DNA from: a virus
Direction: 5' to 3' (one strand)
Length of the DNA: 33,143 nucleotides
Virus record (IMG/VR): IMGVR_UViG_3300009550_000035
Location: 1-33,143 of that record
Of the stretch, positions 16,504 to 33,143 are shown piece after piece (position 1 is the stretch's first letter; the number at the start of each line of letters is the position of its first letter). Position numbers and translations under genes: made by a program. The notes under the pieces were generated by a model. The model was not told the DNA's origin and searched no databases. It was given only the letters and a program-made list of their open reading frames with translations.

Positions 16504-16773
16504 TTAATTTATTTTTTGATACCACTTAGGAACTGCAAAGTTAAAATAAATTCTTAGGTATTTAACTTTATTAACATAAAATACCATGATAGGATTCAAG
16601 TAATCTTCCAAGAACGTTTTAAGGTGCCTATTTCTAAACATGTACTTAGACATAGTTTTGTTTAGTAAAGTTTTAGAATAATCATATCCTGTATTTTTTA
16701 CTACCCAACCCTCTTCATATGTAGCTCGGTATAAACTAGGAAATCCTTTTCTATTATTTTTTACTGTAGACAT
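16504..16773 (-). CDS. Small basic protein of unknown function (89 aa) between gp6-like and the large wedge gene
   Basis: I do not recognise this protein. It is basic (many Lys/Arg) and aromatic, with Tyr/Phe/Trp throughout (FPSLYRATYEEGWVVKNTGY, YLRIYFNFAVPKWYQKIN). It has no signal peptide. The ATG at 16773 lies 1 nt after the gp6-like stop. It has one of the few AGGA-like ribosome-binding sites in the window (AAAGGAAAGTAAG before ATG), located inside the 3' end of gp6. The next gene starts 6 nt downstream. The tight packing between two wedge genes suggests a small wedge subunit or assembly factor, but this is inference from position. Codon use looks like its neighbours, so I treat it as a real gene. 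Confidence 0.65.
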   Translation of the reverse strand: MSTVKNNRKGFPSLYRATYEEGWVVKNTGYDYSKTLLNKTMSKYMFRNRHLKTFLEDYLNPIMVFYVNKVKYLRIYFNFAVPKWYQKIN

Positions 16774-16774
16774 C

Positions 16775-18631
16775 TTACTTTCCTTTTATTGTATTAAGCG
16801 TTGGTGTACTTTCTAATCTACCGGTATTTAAACCTGCAGAGTTAGCACCCGTCGCAATTGTAGTTCCTCTGTTTCTTTTAGTTTGATTATACTTTTCTTG
16901 TTGTATTTTGTTATAAAGATTATTAGCAATACCTTCTTTATAGAATACATTAAGTGAACTAATTTTATTAGCTTCTGGTATAGGCTCATAAAAAGTTCCA
17001 TTTCTATCTTTCCAACCACCACGAATAATTGCTAATTCATCATTTCCTATTATAATATCACCAAAGCTATCTAATCCTAATTGAGGATCTTCTCCTTTTT
17101 TCAAAACTATTTTCTTATTCTCTATAAGTACCTTTTGGTCTGTTACTGGATCGGTTCCATAAACAGGTACAAAATAAAATCCGTCTCTAATAGCTTTTTC
17201 ATTTTGCTCAGAAATAAAGAATACATTTACAGAATCAATTCCTTCTACATTTTCAATTATAGAAATAATATCCGACCTTGGAATTCTATCTCTTCTATTT
17301 ACGTTTAAGAAATATTCATCTAGATTTTTTCTTATCTCAATTCTTATAGCATCTTTATCATAATTATCAAACCATCTTACTACTATATTAAGAGCATATT
17401 TTCTAATGATAGGTTGAACTATTCTAGTCTCAGCGGTTACAACTTGTCTTCCACTCTTGTTTAATATTTCATAAGTCATTTCCTTTTCTTGGTCTGTCAT
17501 AGTAAATTCAACTTCAGGTATACTAAAATAATCTAAGTCACTAGTCAATTTCTTTTTAACATCAGGAATTAAAAACAAGTAAATAATGTTATCATCATCT
17601 AAGTATTCATCATTCTTAGTATTATAAGCATCAATGAAAGACCAAAAGTCATACTTACTTAAATAGTAAATATAATTATTAGGATTAGCCAATACAAAAG
17701 AATTACTTGCATAAGGAGCAATTAATCGAGTAAAGGTAGGATCTTCAGAATCAGAACCAAACATTGGATTCCTTGTAATATTCATTGAAAGAATTTCATT
17801 TAAATCTACTTGTTCACCAGAAGAATCTGTTCCAGGATCTGAAAACTTAATATCTAATTGTTTTCCACCAATATTACCAGCCACACCTCTAGTCTTTACA
17901 TAAGTTATTCTAATCCTAGATCCTAATGCAGGCGGTCTACCAAATTGATTATTTCCAAAGAAAACAGATAAGCCACCATTAACACTAGTTTTAATCATAG
18001 CTGCTTCTTCTCCATTATTCATATCATATATTGAATCTACTAATTTCCATTTTTTGCCATCAACAAAACATTCAACTAAATATTGATCCGTAGGTTCTTT
18101 GGTTGATAAGTTAAAACTCTGTAAAGGGTTACCGGATCCTGTAAATGATTGTTCATCCTTTTCACCTTGTATAACCTCAACATTTACAAATTGCTTATTA
18201 CTTTTATCTAATCTAATAAAATCACTATTGAATCTTAAAAAATAAGTTAAACCATTTTGACCTATTTCAAAAGATGCACCATTCATAATTTGAACATAGT
18301 CACCATCAAGAAGGGTAGATGCACTTGTATTTAATCGTAATCCAATTATACCTCTTGCAGATATACCTCTTGTAGGATCATGTCCAGTTAATCTAGATAA
18401 TCCATAAATAGATTCAATATTCCTAGCTCTTGAAATATTCATTTCAGTTGCTACTGCTTCTATATAAAAGAAAATCATTTCACCTAAGTTAGAAACTACA
18501 GTTAGAATTTGACCAAACGGTGAAGCCGGAGTAAATACTTCAACGGCCTGGTCATAAGTTCTCTGGAGGTATTCAAATGAATCCTCAAATAACTCAGTAG
18601 CCTTTAACCTTGTTTTACTAAAAAATGACAT
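16775..18631 (-). CDS. Baseplate wedge protein, gp6-like / baseplate J-like
   Basis: This is the structural core of the wedge that forms the inner baseplate ring around the hub. At 618 aa it is close to T4 gp6 (660 aa). The N-terminal half is helical near the start (QILTVVSNLGEMIFFYIEAVATEMNIS) and then has a J-like core with GRPPALGSRIRITYVKTRG, matching the G-x-P-x-x-G-x-x-I-x-[IV]-x-Y pattern of baseplate J/gp6 proteins. The C-terminal half has YALNIVVRWFDNYDKDAIRI followed by DRIPRSDIISIIENVEGIDS, typical of the gp6 C-terminal dimerisation region, where variable loops are followed by an I-x-x-[IV]-x-G-[IV] signature. The gp25-like gene precedes it by 13 nt, as in T4 (25 then 6). The sequence ends with a polar, Thr/Asn-rich tail. 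Confidence 0.88.
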   Translation of the reverse strand: MSFFSKTRLKATELFEDSFEYLQRTYDQAVEVFTPASPFGQILTVVSNLGEMIFFYIEAVATEMNISRARNIESIYGLSRLTGHDPTRGISARGIIGLRLNTSASTLLDGDYVQIMNGASFEIGQNGLTYFLRFNSDFIRLDKSNKQFVNVEVIQGEKDEQSFTGSGNPLQSFNLSTKEPTDQYLVECFVDGKKWKLVDSIYDMNNGEEAAMIKTSVNGGLSVFFGNNQFGRPPALGSRIRITYVKTRGVAGNIGGKQLDIKFSDPGTDSSGEQVDLNEILSMNITRNPMFGSDSEDPTFTRLIAPYASNSFVLANPNNYIYYLSKYDFWSFIDAYNTKNDEYLDDDNIIYLFLIPDVKKKLTSDLDYFSIPEVEFTMTDQEKEMTYEILNKSGRQVVTAETRIVQPIIRKYALNIVVRWFDNYDKDAIRIEIRKNLDEYFLNVNRRDRIPRSDIISIIENVEGIDSVNVFFISEQNEKAIRDGFYFVPVYGTDPVTDQKVLIENKKIVLKKGEDPQLGLDSFGDIIIGNDELAIIRGGWKDRNGTFYEPIPEANKISSLNVFYKEGIANNLYNKIQQEKYNQTKRNRGTTIATGANSAGLNTGRLESTPTLNTIKGK

Positions 18632-18644
18632 TTACTTTATTATT

Positions 18645-19007
18645 TTAAAAAAGAGCACCAATTACTCTTTGTTCATTTACAAAAATATCAACTAAGCAAC
18701 CATCCCTTTCTAATGTAGAAAAGAAACTTACTTTAGTATTTACATCAAAGCCTGCAAAATCTGGTAAACAGTATGCGGTTATTTGACTATTAATATTATT
18801 TTGTATCGTGTTCTCATTTAATACTAAAGAAAATATTAATTCATCTAAGTTACACCCTACCCCAGGTGCTCCTAAAACATCGCCTTTTCTAGTAAAGAGG
18901 ACATTTTCTATCTTAAGAATTAATTGAGATAAGCTATCACTAACCTCTAAAGTAGCATCATTGAACTTCGGAGCTTCTGCGTCTCTACTATAAATATCTC
19001 TAATCAT
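18645..19007 (-). CDS. Baseplate wedge protein, gp25/GpW-like
   Basis: The protein has 120 aa; T4 gp25 has 132. The segment SQLILKIENVLFTRKGDVLGAPGVGCNLDELIF matches the family pattern: a helix, then [LF]-x-T-x-x-G-[ED]-x-x-x-x-P-x-x-G, then a second helix that starts the sheath-docking core. The region after it (TIQNNINSQITAYCLPDFAGFDVNTKVSFF) fits the second half of the fold. The exact EPR motif often seen in gp25 proteins is not obvious here. In contractile systems this small protein clamps the first sheath ring to the inner baseplate. It sits immediately before the gp6-like gene, the same order as T4. A 60-nt gap upstream contains a copy of the recurrent AATATATAATAAAA motif. Confidence 0.85.
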   Translation of the reverse strand: MIRDIYSRDAEAPKFNDATLEVSDSLSQLILKIENVLFTRKGDVLGAPGVGCNLDELIFSLVLNENTIQNNINSQITAYCLPDFAGFDVNTKVSFFSTLERDGCLVDIFVNEQRVIGALF

Positions 19008-19067: not shown

Positions 19068-19931
19068 TTATCCTGTGAAAAAGTAGTCAACACCTTCATC
19101 ACCTTTAATTTCTTCAACTACTCTATCTACTTCTTCTCTTCCTTCTGAAGAAATCATATCATAATTAATTGTAATATTACCTGGAAGATTAAAAGAGAAT
19201 GTTCCTAAGATTCTAGATAATTGAATTTTAGCCATTCCTATTACATATCTTTGAAATGCTTCATCTTCAAAAAGTGCACAGTCAGGAATTGTAGAAAATA
19301 TTTCAAATATAACAGCTCTCGTTGGTAGCTCTCCTTGAAATCTAAACTTTTTTGTTAATCTATTATAAGTGTAAGATATTTGAGGTAAAAGAACTTGCCT
19401 TGCATTATCCATAAACAATGAATTAACAACATAGTACATTAAATTTTCACTACCGATACCAGCACCATAAACATCATCATAAATAAACTTATCTATAGAA
19501 AAATCTACATCATCAGCATTAAAGCTCATTTGACCAAATCCACCATCTTCTCCACTAAAACCACCAATTTCAAAAACATCATTTACTGCCCATACTCTAG
19601 ATGGCATCTGAACAATACCTCTAGGATTAGCGAGTTGATTTTTATTTGTTATAGTTTCGTTAGATTGTCCAGTCCCAAAAGGTACGCCTTGTTTAAAGTT
19701 TGGTTTAGCCAATGCGCCTGCTGGTAAAGCAATATACATCTGCTCTACACTATCTTCATATATTTTATAAAAATAGTTTTTTGCTCTTTGTATGATATTG
19801 TTTAATTCTTTCTTAGGAACTGTAAACGGTATTTGGCATGCAATAGTAAGATCATCATTAATTATTTTAATTAATGCATCTAAACATGCAGCTTCATCCG
19901 GATCATTACAATAAGTATTCTTATTAGCCAT
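19068..19931 (-). CDS. Virion structural protein (287 aa), probable baseplate component
   Basis: I see no catalytic motif. The N-terminus has three Cys (C8, C15 and C32). The middle is Gly/Phe/Asp-rich (FEIGGFSGEDGGFGQMSF). The C-terminal 70 residues resemble a recurrent pattern in structural proteins of large phages: an acidic residue pair, F-x-x-Y, a helix (VIGMAKIQLSRILGTFSF), LPG, then [ND]-x-x-[ML]-x-S-E-[GA]-x-x-E and a final amphipathic helix (DRVVEEIKGDE). This pattern recall is from general familiarity, not a search. It lies 7 nt after the amidoligase gene and before gp25-like, so it is probably part of the wedge or neck. The ATG at 19931 has no Shine-Dalgarno sequence; its leader is A-rich and overlaps the end of the preceding gene. 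Confidence 0.72.
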   Translation of the reverse strand: MANKNTYCNDPDEAACLDALIKIINDDLTIACQIPFTVPKKELNNIIQRAKNYFYKIYEDSVEQMYIALPAGALAKPNFKQGVPFGTGQSNETITNKNQLANPRGIVQMPSRVWAVNDVFEIGGFSGEDGGFGQMSFNADDVDFSIDKFIYDDVYGAGIGSENLMYYVVNSLFMDNARQVLLPQISYTYNRLTKKFRFQGELPTRAVIFEIFSTIPDCALFEDEAFQRYVIGMAKIQLSRILGTFSFNLPGNITINYDMISSEGREEVDRVVEEIKGDEGVDYFFTG

Positions 19932-19938
19932 ACTTTGT

Positions 19939-21231
19939 TTATATTTTTTCTATTTCAATTATTTCAGTATTTTCAAATCTTGCCATTTTAGTAGCTCTAC
20001 CTTTTCTAAAAATACCACCTTCCATTTCTCCACTGAATACTCCTCTAGGTCCAAAGACATAAGAATCTTTACATATTACATTTTTACTAACATAAGAATC
20101 TTCTATCTTACAATCAGCGGCATCTGTTGCCCCAAATAAGTTGCTTTCAAATAAAGATGAATTTACTAGCTCTGAATTAAAGATATCACAATTTAAAATG
20201 TTACCTTGAATTTTACAGTCTACAATATCAATCCCTTTTATTTCAAAACATCTCATTAGTTCTGCATTCTTTAATTGCATTCTACCAGTATCAGCATCAT
20301 AGTTAATTAAACCTTCTTTTAAACCAGCTAAAGTTAAAAGCTTAAAAAGATCTTCTCTCATTTTAGGATAAAATGTTTCTACAATTTGATCATATGTTTT
20401 AAGATCAACCATTAATTTTATCTTTGGAAATTTTTTCTTAAATGTTTGGTAATCTTTATAAGATTCAACTATACCACTGTGCTTTTCTAAAACAACATCT
20501 AATTGTTTAAGATCTTCATCGGTATATTTAGGATACATTAAAGTTTCATATAATGATAGAACAAAATGTTCTGTTAAATTCATTATTGTATTATACTTCT
20601 TTTCATAATCTTTTCCACCAAGATATCTAAATTCAATATAATTCTTAGGTAACTTAGAAAAGTTTACACCATAATACTTTTCCGATACAAACATATAATT
20701 TTTCCATGAAATTCTTTCAGGAGATGGTTGAGTCATTCCACTTAAAGGAACAATAAATTTTATTGACTTAGCATAAACAGAATCTTTTCTATTAGGAAAT
20801 GCTTCATATATTTTATTCTCATCAAAATTTAATACAAATTTACCAATATCCAAATTTGATATATTTGCAGGAACTCCTAATTTAGATCCATCAAAAGCTA
20901 CATTAATATGAATAGAACATCTTTCATTAGTAGATCCATTTTCACGAATCCATTTTAATGTTTTAGCAATAATAAGTTTGGATTCAACAAACGGCATTGG
21001 ACCGGTAACTAATTCAATCATACCAGTTCCACCTGAATTATCAGGTTCTAATTTAAATGTTTCATCGGAAGGTGAAAAGTCACTATGTGCCTTTTCTTCT
21101 ATTCTTATTTGTTTATTTAAGGTATTTGAAAGACTTCTTTTAACCTCATCTAACCCTTCATTAGCAAAGAATTCAAATTCTAATCCAATCTTGGATGCAT
21201 ATATAGCATTTAATTGTTCGTTGGTGTACAT
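19939..21231 (-). CDS. Glutamine-synthetase-like amidoligase fused to C-terminal pentapeptide repeats
   Basis: Likely an ATP-dependent carboxylate-amine (peptide-bond) ligase of the GS-fold amidoligase family (Amidoligase_2 type). Visible motifs in order: G-L-E-F-E-F-F at residues 16-22 (E18 and E20, predicted metal ligands of the first strand); D64-x-S followed by M-I-E-L-V-T-G-P-M-P at 71-80 (E73, the usual E-[IL]-V-[ST]-x-P motif); C-S-I-H-I-N at 105-110 (H108; many members have H-x-H, here H-x-N); and Y-I-E-F-R-Y-L-G-G at 198-206 (E200, R202). After a helical linker, residues about 335-370 show perfect five-residue spacing of Ile/Leu (CKIQG, NILNC, DIFNS, ELVNS, SLFES, NLFGA), i.e. a pentapeptide-repeat beta-helix, followed by a less regular beta tail to about 410. 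No structural role is apparent. The substrate is unknown: a cell-wall peptide, a small metabolite or a virion protein terminus. The start at 21231 is supported by AGGA 8-11 nt upstream. Confidence 0.8.
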   Translation of the reverse strand: MYTNEQLNAIYASKIGLEFEFFANEGLDEVKRSLSNTLNKQIRIEEKAHSDFSPSDETFKLEPDNSGGTGMIELVTGPMPFVESKLIIAKTLKWIRENGSTNERCSIHINVAFDGSKLGVPANISNLDIGKFVLNFDENKIYEAFPNRKDSVYAKSIKFIVPLSGMTQPSPERISWKNYMFVSEKYYGVNFSKLPKNYIEFRYLGGKDYEKKYNTIMNLTEHFVLSLYETLMYPKYTDEDLKQLDVVLEKHSGIVESYKDYQTFKKKFPKIKLMVDLKTYDQIVETFYPKMREDLFKLLTLAGLKEGLINYDADTGRMQLKNAELMRCFEIKGIDIVDCKIQGNILNCDIFNSELVNSSLFESNLFGATDAADCKIEDSYVSKNVICKDSYVFGPRGVFSGEMEGGIFRKGRATKMARFENTEIIEIEKI

Positions 21232-21271: not shown

Positions 21272-21898
21272 TTATGCTATGTTCATTGTAATCTTACGAT
21301 CACTAACATTCACACTACCAATTTTTACATTTACTTTATCACCTTTAGATAAATCAGCACCCTTTAATTTGGACTTATGAATTAATCCACTAATACCTTT
21401 CTCTAATTCAACAAAAGCACCGTATGAAGTTATTTTAGTCACCTTACCTTCAGTAATCATCATAGGTTTATATTTCTCATCCACACCATCCCATAAATCA
21501 ACTTTAGGTCCTAATTGGCTTAGTATAATTTTTCTATCTGAAATTACCTCTTTAGTCCAAAATGTTATAGAATCACCAGGCTTAATACTTCTATCATCTA
21601 AAGCTTTTTGATATTCTTCACTTAATTCAGCTTTAGGAATCAGACCAGTTAAACATTCATCAAATTCAGCAAATACTCCAAACTTGGTAGTCCCAGTTAC
21701 AAACCCAGTTCTTTGTTCTTTAATTGTTTCATTTAATTTTTCAATTGTTGAAGGAATCATTGTTCTTAAATATTCTCTATGAGAAACTACAACAGTATCT
21801 TTTTCTTTTGAAAAAGTTATCGGCATAACAATTATTTCTTTTCCAACTAATACATTAAAGTCGTGTAATTTATTTAATCCACCTAATGATCCTGGCAT
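21272..21898 (-). CDS. S1-domain RNA-binding protein, downstream fragment of a frameshifted gene
   Basis: From the ATG at 21898 the product is 208 aa, but the same frame stays open upstream to the TAA at 22061-22063 and encodes the start of an S1 domain (STIGFTAKVKELIHGGYWVD). This ATG is therefore almost certainly internal. The fragment holds the end of S1 domain 2 (ends VVVSHREYL), a full domain 3 (GFVTGTTKFGVFAEFDECLTGLIP to KIILSQLG) and a full domain 4 (GKVTKITSYGAFVELEKGISGLIH to KITMNIA). The G-x-V-x-x-I-x-x-[FY]-G-[AV]-F-[VA] and G-L-[IV]-[HP] signatures are clear. S1 domains are OB folds that bind single-stranded RNA; ribosomal protein S1 uses them to recruit mRNA. Joined with the upstream fragment at 22006-22413, the protein would have 380 aa and four S1 domains. 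Confidence 0.82.
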   Translation of the reverse strand: MPGSLGGLNKLHDFNVLVGKEIIVMPITFSKEKDTVVVSHREYLRTMIPSTIEKLNETIKEQRTGFVTGTTKFGVFAEFDECLTGLIPKAELSEEYQKALDDRSIKPGDSITFWTKEVISDRKIILSQLGPKVDLWDGVDEKYKPMMITEGKVTKITSYGAFVELEKGISGLIHKSKLKGADLSKGDKVNVKIGSVNVSDRKITMNIA

Positions 21899-22005
21899 AA
21901 AGCATTTAATTCCTGCAACATCTACCCAATAACCACCATGAATTAATTCTTTAACCTTGGCAGTGAATCCAATTGTAGAATTTCCTATTGCATCTTTTAT
22001 TTCTT

Positions 22006-22413
22006 TTAGCTTAACCTCTTGTATAGCATCGGATATAGAAGCAATAACATCCCCTGTCTTTTATTTGTTTTTATCTTAACATCAATTTCCATCCCAACCT
22101 CTAATTGTTCTACAATATAATCAGGTTCTTTTGTTAAAGTACAATATGCAGTATATTTAGATTCAATATCAATGAGAGCTCTTTCTCTATCTTTAGATAT
22201 GAAAGAAACCTCCCCTCTCGTGGTATAAGCCACGTTATCTTCTATAAGTTTTGTTTTTTGTAAAGTAGGATCTGTAACTCCATACATTGAAAGTACATCA
22301 GCAGCATATGCCTCGTTACACATTAATTTAGTTCCTTCAGGAACTTGTACTTTTACTTTCTTTGTATCAAATGGATCATCACTTAATTGAATTGTGATTT
22401 CTTGTTCAGTCAT
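22006..22413 (-). CDS. S1-domain RNA-binding protein, upstream fragment of a frameshifted gene
   Basis: The frame as read gives 135 aa. The first 118 residues hold an acidic N-terminal extension (MTEQEITIQLSDDPFDTKK) and most of S1 domain 1 (TTRGEVSFISKDRERALID to VGMEIDVKIKTNK). The last 17 residues (RQGMLLLLYPML and on) look unlike an S1 domain and come from an out-of-frame tail. Moving to the -1 frame in the short runs at 22051-22062 continues domain 1 properly as GDVIASISDAI and leads without a stop into the 21272-21898 fragment. The intact gene would therefore span 22413 to 21272. The gene begins after a 95-nt gap that carries a copy of the AATATATAAT motif and an inverted repeat. Phage-encoded S1 homologues are known in large phages. 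Confidence 0.78.
   Translation of the reverse strand: MTEQEITIQLSDDPFDTKKVKVQVPEGTKLMCNEAYAADVLSMYGVTDPTLQKTKLIEDNVAYTTRGEVSFISKDRERALIDIESKYTAYCTLTKEPDYIVEQLEVGMEIDVKIKTNKRQGMLLLLYPMLYKRLS
22051..22063 (-). other. Frameshift site splitting the four-S1-domain gene
   Basis: On the minus strand the sequence reads AATAAAAGACAGGGGATG. The upstream reading frame passes through as N-K-R-Q-G-M and then loses S1 character. The downstream frame has a TAA at 22061-22063 and is S1-like from K-T-G-D-V-I-A-S on. One extra A in the AAAA run (22059-22062) or one extra G in the GGGG run (22051-22054) restores a single 380-codon frame. No canonical X-XXY-YYZ slippery heptamer is present in the upstream frame, so a base missing from the assembly or a genuine inactivating deletion is more likely than programmed frameshifting. 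Confidence 0.75.
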
Positions 22414-22508: not shown

Positions 22509-23111
22509 TTAAATTAAAGTTACCCATGGAAAAACTAATGGAGGAGGTGGGCTACCAGCAGCAGCCAAACCAACCCAAGTACCAGTTACTAATTTTAAAT
22601 GAGCAATAAATGCTACATTAAGAGCAGAACACAATGGATATGTTTTACCTAATTTAAAGGCCGCACCTATAGCAGGAGTTAATGCAATAGTAGCACCAGG
22701 AACCAAAATTTTATTTGTAGTACCTGCCCCACCACCAGGCGGTGGCGGTGCCGTTGCCATTGTCCCTCCAGTCCAATACTTAACAACTGCTTTAGCAGCA
22801 GGTGCCCAGACTGCATTAGGCATTTCACTATTCCATTGTTTTACTGTATAATCGGTCGGGCTTATATTTGCAGTTTGCCATTCCTCTGCTAATTTAAAAG
22901 ATGCTTCAAATCCTAATTGAATAGTTCTAGCTTTTCCTCTTTTTACAACAGGAGCACCATAGGGAGTTTGAACAGCCGTTGCTGCTAAATGATAATTTCT
23001 TCCAATTTCTTTTGCAAGTGGTTTATATGAATAAGTCAAACTCTGATTAGATGCTTGGCTCATCATCCATCCAGGTAAAATAGTCTGAAAGGGTAGTGGA
23101 TTCCAAGGCAT
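22509..23111 (-). CDS. Pro/Gly/Ala-rich protein of unknown function (200 aa) after the spike gene
   Basis: I do not recognise a family. The N-terminus is Pro/Trp-rich (MPWNPLPFQTILPGWMM). A helical middle follows (FEASFKLAEEWQTANIS, then WAPAAKAVVKYWTGG), then a Pro/Gly linker (APPPPGGGAGTTNK). The C-terminal part alternates Ala/Leu/Gly helices and turns (ALTPAIGAAFKLGKTYPLC, NVAFIAHLKLVTG) and ends SPPPPLVFPWVTLI. It is clearly less Asn-rich than its neighbours. Its ATG overlaps the gp5-like stop as TAATG, so it is translationally coupled to the spike. Genes after a spike often encode a tip or a hub partner, but the Cys/His pattern and PAAR motif of known tip proteins are absent. A hub accessory or structural role is inference from position. 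Confidence 0.68.
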   Translation of the reverse strand: MPWNPLPFQTILPGWMMSQASNQSLTYSYKPLAKEIGRNYHLAATAVQTPYGAPVVKRGKARTIQLGFEASFKLAEEWQTANISPTDYTVKQWNSEMPNAVWAPAAKAVVKYWTGGTMATAPPPPGGGAGTTNKILVPGATIALTPAIGAAFKLGKTYPLCSALNVAFIAHLKLVTGTWVGLAAAGSPPPPLVFPWVTLI

Positions 23112-24046
23112 TAGTCTGTAGTGTTTTTAGAACTTAATGAAGGTGCAGCTTTTTGTATAGGTGGACCTGTTGGGCCTCCTGGTGCCGGGTGAATATGAGC
23201 ATCAAATATTTTTGCAAAAGTATCTCCTTTTATTACTGCCTCAGCAGCAGCTTCACCTAATTTAATTCTTGGTGAGTTTATATGCGTTTCAGCACTGGCA
23301 TTTATTTTAGCATTAACACAATTAATTTCAGTATCAGCTGTAGCATTAACAATAAAATTAGTATCGGTATTAATTATAGTATCATTTCCACTATTAACAG
23401 TAAAAACAGCTGAGTGTGTAAATGTTATATTCCCATCATTAAGCATTACAATAGAATCTCCATTTGCATTAATTATATGAACAGAATTATCAGGTTTTAT
23501 ATTAACTGTTGTTGGACCTTCAGTAGTTGTATAGTCCATCATTAAACCTTTTTCTTCTGTAAAGAAAACTTTAATATGCTCACCTTCTCTTTCATTAGTT
23601 ACTTCAGAAACACCATCTTGTAATTCACCCGTTAAACCAAATGCAGTATCATAAATTAATACATGAGAATTTTGATATGAAGGTTCTACTTCAGCTTTTG
23701 TTTCATCTGAAGGATAAATATTTTCATGATAAATTGGTTGATAAAAATTTCCATTGTCAAATGTTATTCTAACAATAGAGCCTAATTTTGGAATTTCAAA
23801 TTTACCACTCCCAGTATTACTACCTCCATACATTAACTGGTGAGGTCGTGACCAAGGTAAAGCAGCAGTGGGAATCTTAAATGCGCTTTGTGGATCTTCA
23901 GGATCTACACGATCATCCATTTTACCATACACTCTAATCTTACACCTTCCTTCAAAGATATCATCATTGGTATCTTCTACGATTCCTACCCATTGTGTAG
24001 ATCGCAAATCATCCGAATTAAAATTTGCTGGATTTACTTTTCCCAT
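23111..24046 (-). CDS. Baseplate central spike, gp5-like OB-fold protein without lysozyme
   Basis: The spike sits under the tail tube and pierces the outer membrane on contraction. Residues about 18-120 form the OB fold: WVGIVEDTNDDIFEGRCKIRVYG, then IPKLGSIVRITFDNGNFYQPIYHE, the usual P-x-x-G-x-x-[VI] and P-[IV]-x motifs. Residues about 185-285 are short beta repeats (SVHIINANGDSIVML, NTDTNFIVNATADTEINC, AETHINSPRIKLG), consistent with the trimeric beta-helix needle. Near the end, IKGDTFAKIFDAHIHPAPGG matches the D-x-H-x-H-P motif of many phage spikes, where the histidines may hold a metal. T4 gp5 (575 aa) carries a lysozyme domain between these parts; here there is none and the protein is 311 aa. 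Start and stop overlap the neighbours as TAATG on both sides. Confidence 0.86.
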   Translation of the reverse strand: MGKVNPANFNSDDLRSTQWVGIVEDTNDDIFEGRCKIRVYGKMDDRVDPEDPQSAFKIPTAALPWSRPHQLMYGGSNTGSGKFEIPKLGSIVRITFDNGNFYQPIYHENIYPSDETKAEVEPSYQNSHVLIYDTAFGLTGELQDGVSEVTNEREGEHIKVFFTEEKGLMMDYTTTEGPTTVNIKPDNSVHIINANGDSIVMLNDGNITFTHSAVFTVNSGNDTIINTDTNFIVNATADTEINCVNAKINASAETHINSPRIKLGEAAAEAVIKGDTFAKIFDAHIHPAPGGPTGPPIQKAAPSLSSKNTTD

Positions 24047-26992: not shown

Positions 26993-27538
26993 TTATGATT
27001 CAGTATTTGTACGATTCCTAGATGGTAAATTTGCTCCTAATTTAATTTTTCCTCCTTCATATATTTTAGCTTCTTGTCCTTGCTGTAACATATTCGGTGG
27101 AATAGGTGCCTTAACACCAGTCTTTTTTGTTTTAGCTTTTTGAATTAATCTCTGAACTCTAGCTTGATCTTTTTCACTTTGCTGTCCAGTATCTACATAT
27201 TGTGCTAATGTAGCACTTGGTCTTTCTGCTGGATTAGGTCTCTTATAAACTAAATCTAATTGATCTAATTTAGGAATAGCTAATATATCTCCTTCTTGAA
27301 TAACGAAAGGATTAAAAATATTGTTAACAACACATATAGCATCTACATATGCACCTGTTCCAAAATAAAGTTGTGATATTTTATCCATACGACCAACCTG
27401 GTCTTGTTGAACATAATGTAAAGCCTTAACACCAAGCTCTCTTCTGTATTTAAAAGAAGGTGCAGTTAAATCAAAATACTGCTGACCTGTTCTTTCATCA
27501 GTTAATTTATTCTTTAATGTAAGAGATTTAATATTCAT
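26993..27538 (-). CDS. Baseplate wedge protein, gp53-like with LysM-like fold
   Basis: The protein has 181 aa; T4 gp53 has 196 and contains a LysM-like domain. Residues about 49-90 read GRMDKISQLYFGTGAYVDAI, then CVVNNIFNPFVIQEGDILAIP, which matches the LysM pattern: a D-x-[IL]-[SA] helix, then a Trp/Tyr position, N-x-I, [NP]-x-x-[IV]-x-x-G-[DQ]-x-[IL]-x-[IV]-P. The preceding residues YFDLTAPSFKYRRELGVKAL fit an N-terminal strand. The C-terminal 80 residues are Lys/Gln/Pro-rich and probably extended. In T4 gp53 joins neighbouring wedges. It starts 14 nt after the 597-aa gene and ends 3 nt before the gp27-like start. The leader AAAGAAGT is only weakly SD-like. Confidence 0.75.
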   Translation of the reverse strand: MNIKSLTLKNKLTDERTGQQYFDLTAPSFKYRRELGVKALHYVQQDQVGRMDKISQLYFGTGAYVDAICVVNNIFNPFVIQEGDILAIPKLDQLDLVYKRPNPAERPSATLAQYVDTGQQSEKDQARVQRLIQKAKTKKTGVKAPIPPNMLQQGQEAKIYEGGKIKLGANLPSRNRTNTES

Positions 27539-31642: not shown

Positions 31643-33143
31643 TTATGGAGTACTAAATGTTGTAAGCATTTTTCTACAATGTAAACTATATTCTCTAATA
31701 GTAATTGCAGGGTTACCGTTAGGGTTACGAATTTCCATTGCTACACCATCACCTGGTTTAAAAGTTACATAAGCTCTACCCGTATACCATGCACATTGTC
31801 CAGCTCCACTAATATATCTTACTTCAGCATCTTCCAATGTATTACCACTAAAATCTACAAGATTTAAACGAGCAGATCCACCAGGCAGTGGGCTTGTTGT
31901 TTCGATAAGAACACTAAATGTTGTTTCTACTATTAAATTTCCAGCTGTTTTATTTTTAATAGAATCAGTTTTTCCTGTACCAACACTAAAAGTATCATCA
32001 TGTTCTAAATCATTATTTAATACAGCATCATCAATATATTTAGTTCCATAAATTGGAGTATCTACAGCCAAACCTGTACCGTTAGCAGGAATAGTCTGAG
32101 TACCGGTATTTTGAATAATAGAAGGATCTGTCCAAAGTGTACTTGATCCACTTCCAGTTGCACCTTGTAAACCAATACCTTGTGGACCAGTTCCACCAAT
32201 AAAACCAGTGGCACCTTGGCTTCCAGTAGCACCTATTTTTCCAACTCCTCCTTGATTACCTACAGCTCCTTGAGAACCTTGATTACCTGCAGCTCCTTGA
32301 TTACCATCAGCTCCTTGTTTACCTACAGCTCCATTTGCTCCTTGATTACCTATAGCTCCTTGATTACCATCAGCTCCTTGTTTACCAACTGGACCACCTG
32401 AACCTGTAGCACCTTGATTACCTATATCACCTTTTGCACCAGTTGCTCCTTGTAAACCAGTAGCACCTTGTTTACCTACAAACCCTTGATTACCTACAGC
32501 TCCTTGAGCTCCTTGATTACCTACTGCTCCTTGAGCACCTTGATTACCTGCGGCTCCCTGAGCTCCCTGATTACCTACAGCTCCAGTAGCTCCTTGATTA
32601 CCTTTTACACCTTGAGTACCATCAGCTCCTTGTTTACCTACAGCTCCAGTAGCTCCTTGATTACCTACGGCACCTTGATTACCGGTTGCACCTTGATTAC
32701 CTATAGCTCCAGTAGCTCCTTGATTACCAATAACACCAGGTTCTCCTGTTGCCCCTTCAGAACCTTGTTTACCAATAGCACCTTGATTACCTATAGCACC
32801 AGTAGCTCCTTGATTACCTATAGCTCCTTGATTACCAGTAACACCACTTGCTCCTTGTCCACCTAATGCACCTTGTCCACCAGTAGCTCCTTGTAAACCT
32901 GCAGCACCTTGAGTTCCTGTTGCACCATTACCTCCTTGTTCTCCTTGAGTTCCTGTTGCACCTTGTAAACCAATACCTCCTTGGCTACCTTTTGCACCTT
33001 GAGTTCCTGTTGATCCAGTTAAACCTTGATTACCTACGGCTCCAGTAGAACCTTGTAAACCAGTTCCACCAACTCCACTTGCTCCTTGGCCACCTAATGC
33101 ACCTTGTCCACCAGTAGCTCCTTGTAAACCTGCAGCACCTTGA
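31643..33143 (-). CDS. Collagen-like fibre protein with C-terminal beta domain, 5'-truncated by window edge
   Basis: I read the minus frame from the right edge to the TAA at 31643-31645: 499 codons with no stop and no ATG, so the start is outside the window. The apparent start at 32071 is an internal TTG. Residues up to about position 32150 are Gly-X-Y repeats, about 110 triplets, dominated by [12 protein letters not shown] and G-K-Q. Proline is almost absent (GEPG, GPVG, GPQG only). A few interruptions of the triplet register are visible (for example GVGGTGLQG). The C-terminal segment of about 168 residues (from [10 protein letters not shown] to KMLTTFSTP) has a beta-rich pattern resembling the trimerising C1q/TNF-like or head-fibre knob domains that often cap collagen stalks. 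It is probably a head or tail fibre. Confidence 0.82.
32844..32912. repeat. 69-nt direct repeat, copy 1
   Basis: This segment of the collagen-like gene matches 33075-33143 with a single mismatch (T against G in the CCTTG[T/G]CC stretch). The spacing is 231 nt. The encoded segment includes [15 protein letters not shown]. The second copy reaches the window edge, so the true repeat may be longer. Confidence 0.85.
33075..33143. repeat. 69-nt direct repeat, copy 2 (may continue past the edge)
   Basis: This is the partner of 32844-32912, with one mismatch. Because it ends exactly at the last base of the window, its right boundary is not defined. Confidence 0.82.

Follow-up and report, generated by a model that had tools for sequence, protein, structure and literature searches.

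A predicted amidoligase fused to a pentapeptide-type beta-helix beside the neck and baseplate genes of large aquatic phages

The window analysed here, the whole 33,143-nucleotide stretch of the IMG/VR virus record IMGVR_UViG_3300009550_000035 (positions 1 to 33,143), carries a gene for a protein whose first half is, as judged from profile comparison and structure prediction, a divergent amidoligase of the glutamine synthetase (GS) fold, and whose last 125 residues are, with high confidence from the model, a pentapeptide-type beta-helix. The gene lies amongst neck and baseplate genes, and the best explanation that can be offered, if a tentative one, is that it encodes a late ATP-dependent ligase that would act on a virion or assembly protein. 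GS-fold amidoligases and pentapeptide beta-helices are each known in their own right; what appears to be new is their fusion, its fixed position beside the neck and baseplate genes and its spread through huge phages, none of which was found in the annotation of Pfam, PHROGs and NCBIfam or in the literature searched.

The fusion gene and its invariant residues

The gene is on the minus strand and begins with an ATG in the open reading frame list and its translation. The coding sequence and the residues that define its catalytic half are located as follows.

19939-21231, minus strand: amidoligase–beta-helix fusion coding sequence, 430 aa (open reading frame, alignments, predicted structure)
21172-21180, minus strand: E18-x-E20, predicted metal-binding pair (E-x-E of GS), invariant in 45 sequences
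21013-21015, minus strand: E73 in the ELVTGP motif, predicted metal ligand, invariant in 45 sequences
20902-20910, minus strand: H108-x-N110 (SIHIN), predicted metal/nucleotide-phosphate site, H108 invariant and N110 conserved in at least 90%
20788-20790, minus strand: R148, arginine of the Amidoligase_2-like R....Y segment, invariant in 45 sequences
20626-20634, minus strand: E200-F-R202 (E-x-R motif of GS), E200 and R202 invariant

When 45 representatives of the family are aligned, with identity falling to ~30%, 27 columns are invariant and these include G16, E18, E20, D64, S66, E73, H108, K131, E138, R148, K185, N190, E200 and R202. A sequence-only reading of this DNA had picked out E18-x-E20, E73 (in ELVTGP), H108 (in CSIHIN) and E200-F-R202, all of which are where it placed them and, for the most part, invariant in the alignment; as the motif residues do not change in 45 relatives down to this level of identity, their order is not a matter of chance. 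In GS the order is E-x-E, H and then E-x-R, as it is in the window protein. Judging from motif order and what is generally known of GS, the motif residues would be expected to bind metal and ATP, and the predicted fold together with the invariance implies that E18, E20, E73, H108 and R202 would cluster in space. It is very probable that the fusion protein is catalytically active.

A predicted GS fold in the catalytic half

20527-21231, minus strand: catalytic GS-fold domain, residues ~1-235 (VIA-align to 4bax_A; hhalign over residues 9-221)

On its own the window protein scores 13.8 bits against the Amidoligase_2 profile (PF12224; E 0.054, residues 14-111 only) where the cut-off is 22, so that the profile match anticipated by the sequence-only reading is seen at the level of the family and not of the single protein: a family member ~70% identical to the window protein (L050) reaches 23.5 bits, and gp196 of Agrobacterium phage Atu_ph07, a distant relative, 30.2 bits. 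Comparison of the family with an alignment of seven phage amidoligases, profile to profile in hhalign, gives an E value of 3.1e-8 and a probability of 95% over residues 9-221, with the E-x-E, E-L-V, H-x-N/H and E-F-R of the family falling upon the phage amidoligase motifs. The motif order of Amidoligase_2, G-x-E-x-E, D-x-S, E-[LV]-V, H-x-[NH], R...[YC] and N...E-[FL]-R, is matched, and a GS-fold catalytic domain is predicted to be common to the window protein and to Amidoligase_2 proteins such as gp196 and the gut-phage 'amidoligase enzyme'. Unlike gp196 the window protein has a C-terminal beta-helix, and it differs from Amidoligase_2 proteins in falling below the single-sequence cut-off, in its location in a neck/baseplate cluster and in that no GATase was found in the records.

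In searches of whole phage records the Amidoligase_2 profile missed most family members, and absence by that profile is therefore uninformative. Searching NCBIfam with the fusion protein returned no match, a Pfam scan gave no match to PF00120, and a search of the PDB with the single sequence produced chance-level matches only.

The AlphaFold2 model of the fusion protein, made from the 45-sequence alignment, has a mean pLDDT of 90 and a pTM of 0.81, and its top Foldseek matches in the PDB are glutamine synthetases (E 3.9e-5, probability 1.00). With VIA-align, residues 1-235 of the model superpose on the glutamine synthetase 4bax_A with a Z of 12.3 and an rmsd of 3.6 over 185 aligned residues; the predicted fold of the catalytic domain is thus that of GS (Gln-synt_C, PF00120; Z ~12) at ~10% identity. 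The N-terminal beta-grasp domain of GS is missing, since residue 1 of the model aligns near GS residue 100-140. In BFVD the sole near-full-length match is the unannotated phage protein A0A6J5PQ40 (TM 0.91), after which come proteins annotated 'Amidoligase enzyme', each covering just part of the model. PafA/Dop and GCL are not among the best 50 VIA-align matches, all of which are GS-like chains, a result that does not exclude them. Taken together, the crossing of the Amidoligase_2 cut-off by the family, the hhalign result and the predicted GS fold bear out the earlier proposal of a GS-like amidoligase.

The GS, GCL and GmaS families are GS-fold enzymes with small-amide roles that do not involve the modification of proteins, and GmaS is among the fold matches of the model in both Foldseek and VIA-align. 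Synthesis of a small amide metabolite such as a gamma-glutamyl compound, serving counter-defence or nitrogen metabolism, would be in keeping with this but is very unlikely, as neither a conserved, rigid beta-helix nor coupling over a few base pairs to a neck gene would be expected of a soluble metabolic enzyme, and 6 of 16 of these phage records encode a true glutamine synthetase in a gene of its own.

The presence of that separate Gln-synt_C gene speaks against an ordinary glutamine synthetase AMG. Among the six large records carrying one, the short genes (~330-385 aa) of LR745206, LR756502 and two IMG/VR records (L262, L263, L264 and L265) can be named. Nine 'moraphage' genomes have been reported with GS, the report making no mention of an amidoligase (PMC12619734).

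The connector and the C-terminal beta-helix

20317-20526, minus strand: helical connector, residues ~236-305 (DSSP helices 238-250, 252-257, 261-267 and 281-300)
19942-20316, minus strand: beta-helix, residues ~306-430; five-residue periodicity over 345-381, conserved GxM.GG.FR.G cap (model, alignment, Foldseek)

In the AlphaFold2 model residues 306-430 form strands of ~3 residues at five-residue steps, with pLDDT mostly 93-97 in this block, and the domain is closed by the conserved GxM.GG.FR.G cap. Hydrophobic residues are found at 341, 345, 350, 355, 360, 365, 371, 376 and 381 of the window protein, and across the family columns 345, 350, 355, 360, 365 and 376 are 100% hydrophobic. In the window sequence alone the longest period-5 hydrophobic run is 9, a length reached in 45 of 5000 shuffles. 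The periodicity that had been read as six units with perfect spacing is real, if slightly overstated, as exact five-residue spacing is limited to 345-365, with a step of four from 341 to 345 and of six from 365 to 371, the pattern carrying on with such slips of one residue as far as 381.

Solved pentapeptide proteins are among the Foldseek matches of the model (2o6w, E 2.1e-3; 6fls_A, probability 0.98), which, with the regularity of the predicted structure, upholds the C-terminal beta-helix first proposed from sequence. Relatives match PF13599 with E values down to 5.6e-6, the best scoring 26.8 bits, below the cut-off of 38; PF00805 is matched at 17.3 bits against a cut-off of 20.2, and a search with the family profile gives weak pentapeptide matches. 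Five-residue periodicity and a predicted beta-helix are common to the window protein and the pentapeptide repeat proteins (PF00805/PF13599; Rfr23, MfpA, Qnr), from which it differs in that its helix is short, irregular at two points, closed by the GxM.GG.FR.G cap and under the Pfam cut-offs. The beta-helix half is kept in all representatives except Atu_ph07 gp196.

Between the window and seven relatives pairwise dN/dS is mostly 0.05-0.14 in both halves of the fusion protein, values similar to those of gp6 and the neck gene. Purifying selection on each half is strong, and in most of these pairs the constraint is weakest on the connector. Selection as strong as that on gp6 and the neck gene, together with a position in the morphogenesis cluster, would also suit a tail or neck component, structural or scaffolding, that reuses the GS fold without a need for catalysis. 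This is less probable again than a role in metabolite synthesis, as the active-site motif residues are all invariant at ~30% identity, which is not required of a non-catalytic scaffold.

Genes surrounding the fusion

16775-18631, minus strand: baseplate wedge gp6-like gene (PHROG 219, 1.8e-25)
18645-19007, minus strand: baseplate wedge gp25-like gene (PHROG baseplate wedge, 1.3e-3; synteny)
19068-19931, minus strand: gp13-type neck protein gene, 7 bp downstream of the fusion gene (fold, tblastn, spacing)
21272-22413, minus strand: multi-S1-domain gene directly upstream of the fusion gene (S1, E 7e-25)
23111-24046, minus strand: gp5-like spike/OB-fold baseplate gene (PHROG baseplate/hub, 7.7e-15 and 2.2e-11)
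26993-27538, minus strand: LysM/gp53-like baseplate wedge gene (PHROG baseplate wedge, 1.2e-4)

Genes on the minus strand run in the order LysM/gp53-like, hub-like, D478, gp5-like spike, D200, multi-S1, fusion gene, gp13-type neck, gp25 and gp6. The location in a baseplate operon put forward from the sequence therefore stands in outline, with spike/hub-like genes upstream and gp25/gp6 downstream, and needs amending in that the immediate neighbours are the multi-S1 gene and the gp13-type neck gene. The model of the latter matches the T4 portal-neck-tail complex 9mkb with a Foldseek E of 2.3e-9, the pLDDT of the model being only 70, and in tblastn the protein matches ones annotated as neck proteins in Chryseobacterium MA9V-2 and Tenacibaculum PTm1.

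The neck gene is the closest and most constant partner of the fusion gene in the lineage of the window. Across the marine lineages it is in the locus for all 95 of 95 distinct proteins, nearly always in the same orientation and 2-10 bp downstream, with gp25 present in 94 and gp6 in 90 of the 95 loci. Gene order and strand in the megaphage lineage differ from those of the marine lineages; within 8 kb around the fusion gene a tail-like gene (T597) is found in 23 of 41 cases and the neck gene in 9 of 41, and megaphage fusion genes are often opposite in strand to the tail genes, adjoining DHH or FKBP genes. As these genomes are hundreds of kilobases in length the linkage to neck and tail genes is far above that of random placement, though the members counted share ancestry and so are not independent. 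Lak, Tenacibaculum, Sphingomonas and Flavobacterium phages carry relatives of gp6, from which we infer that the window phage is a Bacteroidota-type large myovirus, consistent with the 'moraphages' of PMC12619734.

In the window only, the multi-S1 gene is split by a frameshift near 22060, the close relatives that were checked having one intact ORF of ~380 aa, and the frameshift is either a sequencing error or a recent mutation. The RimK enzyme is a ribosomal-protein ligase, and an amidoligase beside an S1 gene might in a similar manner modify a translation or RNA-binding protein, be it the upstream phage multi-S1 protein or a host relative. For most members of the marine lineages the multi-S1 gene lies ~40-55 bp upstream, and it is linked in megaphage LR756500; however, in other megaphages it is present but far away, so the linkage is lineage-specific, and this is the least probable of the alternatives considered.

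Some further features of these loci were observed. In the lineage of the window a small conserved gene of 85-92 aa (16504-16773, minus strand) lies between gp6 and a gene of 1374 aa. Another amidoligase gene (L232), in Porphyromonas phage phage018a_AFR5B1, is found between portal/adaptor and neck genes, and thus an amidoligase in the head-tail cluster may recur independently. A collagen-like Gly-X-Y repeat protein, probably a fibre, is encoded on the minus strand at ~32000-33143, running past the end of the window and continuing into the ORF at 31643-32071; this repeat gene accounts for the tandem repeats, whose periods are multiples of 9 bases, and for the plus strand 'ORFs' at 32180-32401 and 32468-32866.

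Distribution of the family

The carriers of the fusion are large marine and freshwater bacterial viruses. In IMG/VR one scan yielded 63 loci with identities of 70-96%, and a profile-led scan matched at least 598 stretches, at least 552 of them encoding a relative; further members, 33-81% identical to the megaphage query, came from a scan led by a megaphage alignment. The full-length protein is present in six uncultured megaphage records of 462-735 kb (LR756500-LR756504 and LR745206) at 32-42% identity, and Atu_ph07 gp196 consists of the catalytic half only. Apart from this distant protein, no cultured relative turned up among the annotated isolates. Amongst 84,980 genomes of bacterial and archaeal species the fusion was found on just two short contigs (4-6 kb), and for this reason it is taken to be a phage family. 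Each of the 13 large records found to contain the fusion gene has a single copy, with further weak partial matches in two records. Two long megaphage ORFs of 692 and 1331 aa (L241 and L242) weakly match the beta-helix part only of the family profile.

A possible role in virion assembly

In the mechanism that we propose, residues 1-235 would act as an ATP- and metal-dependent ligase, in which a carboxylate would be phosphorylated by ATP and the acyl-phosphate then joined to an amine, giving an amide or isopeptide bond, whilst residues 306-430 would provide a rigid beta-helix that holds the enzyme on its partner. It is reasonably probable that the beta-helix is a docking domain. The sequence-only reading had likewise suggested that the tail may dock the enzyme, and that a virion protein, a wall peptide or a metabolite could be its target. 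C-terminal pentapeptide domains are known on assembly factors of contractile machines, namely the DUF2169-PRP and Tvp proteins of T6SS spikes, whose genes likewise belong to the spike cluster of such a machine (PMC11883445, PMC13373197). The N-terminal half of these proteins is a DUF2169/Tvp chaperone domain and not an amidoligase; the likeness is one of layout and not homology, and they may be regarded as a functional precedent for docking.

As the gene is in a virion-morphogenesis cluster, the enzyme would most likely be produced alongside the virion proteins and tag or cross-link a neck or baseplate protein, or another protein present at the assembly stage. Late expression of the fusion gene would be expected; the T4-type late promoter TATAAATA has four matches in the window, fewer than chance, all of which are on the plus strand and none on the coding strand. 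Gene adjacency alone is no proof of a shared substrate, and in the megaphages strand and neighbours vary. That the substrate is a virion or assembly protein has, in our view, somewhat less than an even chance of being correct, and a search for a specific acceptor peptide found none. A narrower version, in which the ligase docks by its beta-helix on the nascent neck or baseplate of huge phages and makes the isopeptide or amino-acid modification of a virion protein an integral part of tail or neck assembly, is unlikely. No precedent for amide modification of a phage injection machine was found in the literature searched.

Peptidoglycan is the proposed target of other phage amidoligases, which are usually encoded together with GATase, ATP-grasp and a gamma-glutamyl cyclotransferase in a peptidoglycan-modification cassette (PMC5498523). 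The fusion protein might in the same way modify the cell envelope, as for the phiEco32/RIO-1 cassette, putting unusual amide links on wall peptides, for instance to block superinfection, with the beta-helix binding a wall or membrane partner. This would follow published proposals for phage Amidoligase_2 proteins (PMC5498523, PMC10580990), and one component of the cassette, gamma-glutamyl cyclotransferase, was found in 4 of 11 large records. However, the cyclotransferase genes lie at distances of tens of kilobases, are never adjacent and are missing in several records, the related ligase PF14395 was not found above its cut-off, and the GATase PF13522 was found in none of 14 large records, among them five megaphage records of 462-735 kb, with the control positive in 14 of 14 genomes. 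Furthermore the fusion gene is in a structural cluster and not in a cassette. A phage-encoded amidoligase is common to the window lineage and the phiEco32/RIO-1 cassette, the window lineage differing in that no GATase was found, no cyclotransferase is adjacent and the neighbourhood is another one. Because the linkage to neck and baseplate genes is stable and the docking domain rigid, the reading in which a virion or assembly protein is modified is ranked first, and modification of the envelope, which is unlikely, second.

Gamma-glutamyl cyclotransferase-like genes are present in megaphages LR745206 (two copies) and LR756502 (L258 and L259), and these are not near the amidoligase.

Significance

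Large aquatic phages, including those with genomes of 462-735 kb, carry beside their neck and baseplate genes a single-copy and strongly conserved enzyme, for which no functional annotation was found in the libraries searched. If it is the cell envelope that is modified, this would represent a phage route to envelope modification that does without the usual GATase partner. If virion proteins are modified, the particles of huge phages would mature in part by an enzymatic step for which structural and proteomic work has so far had no cause to look.
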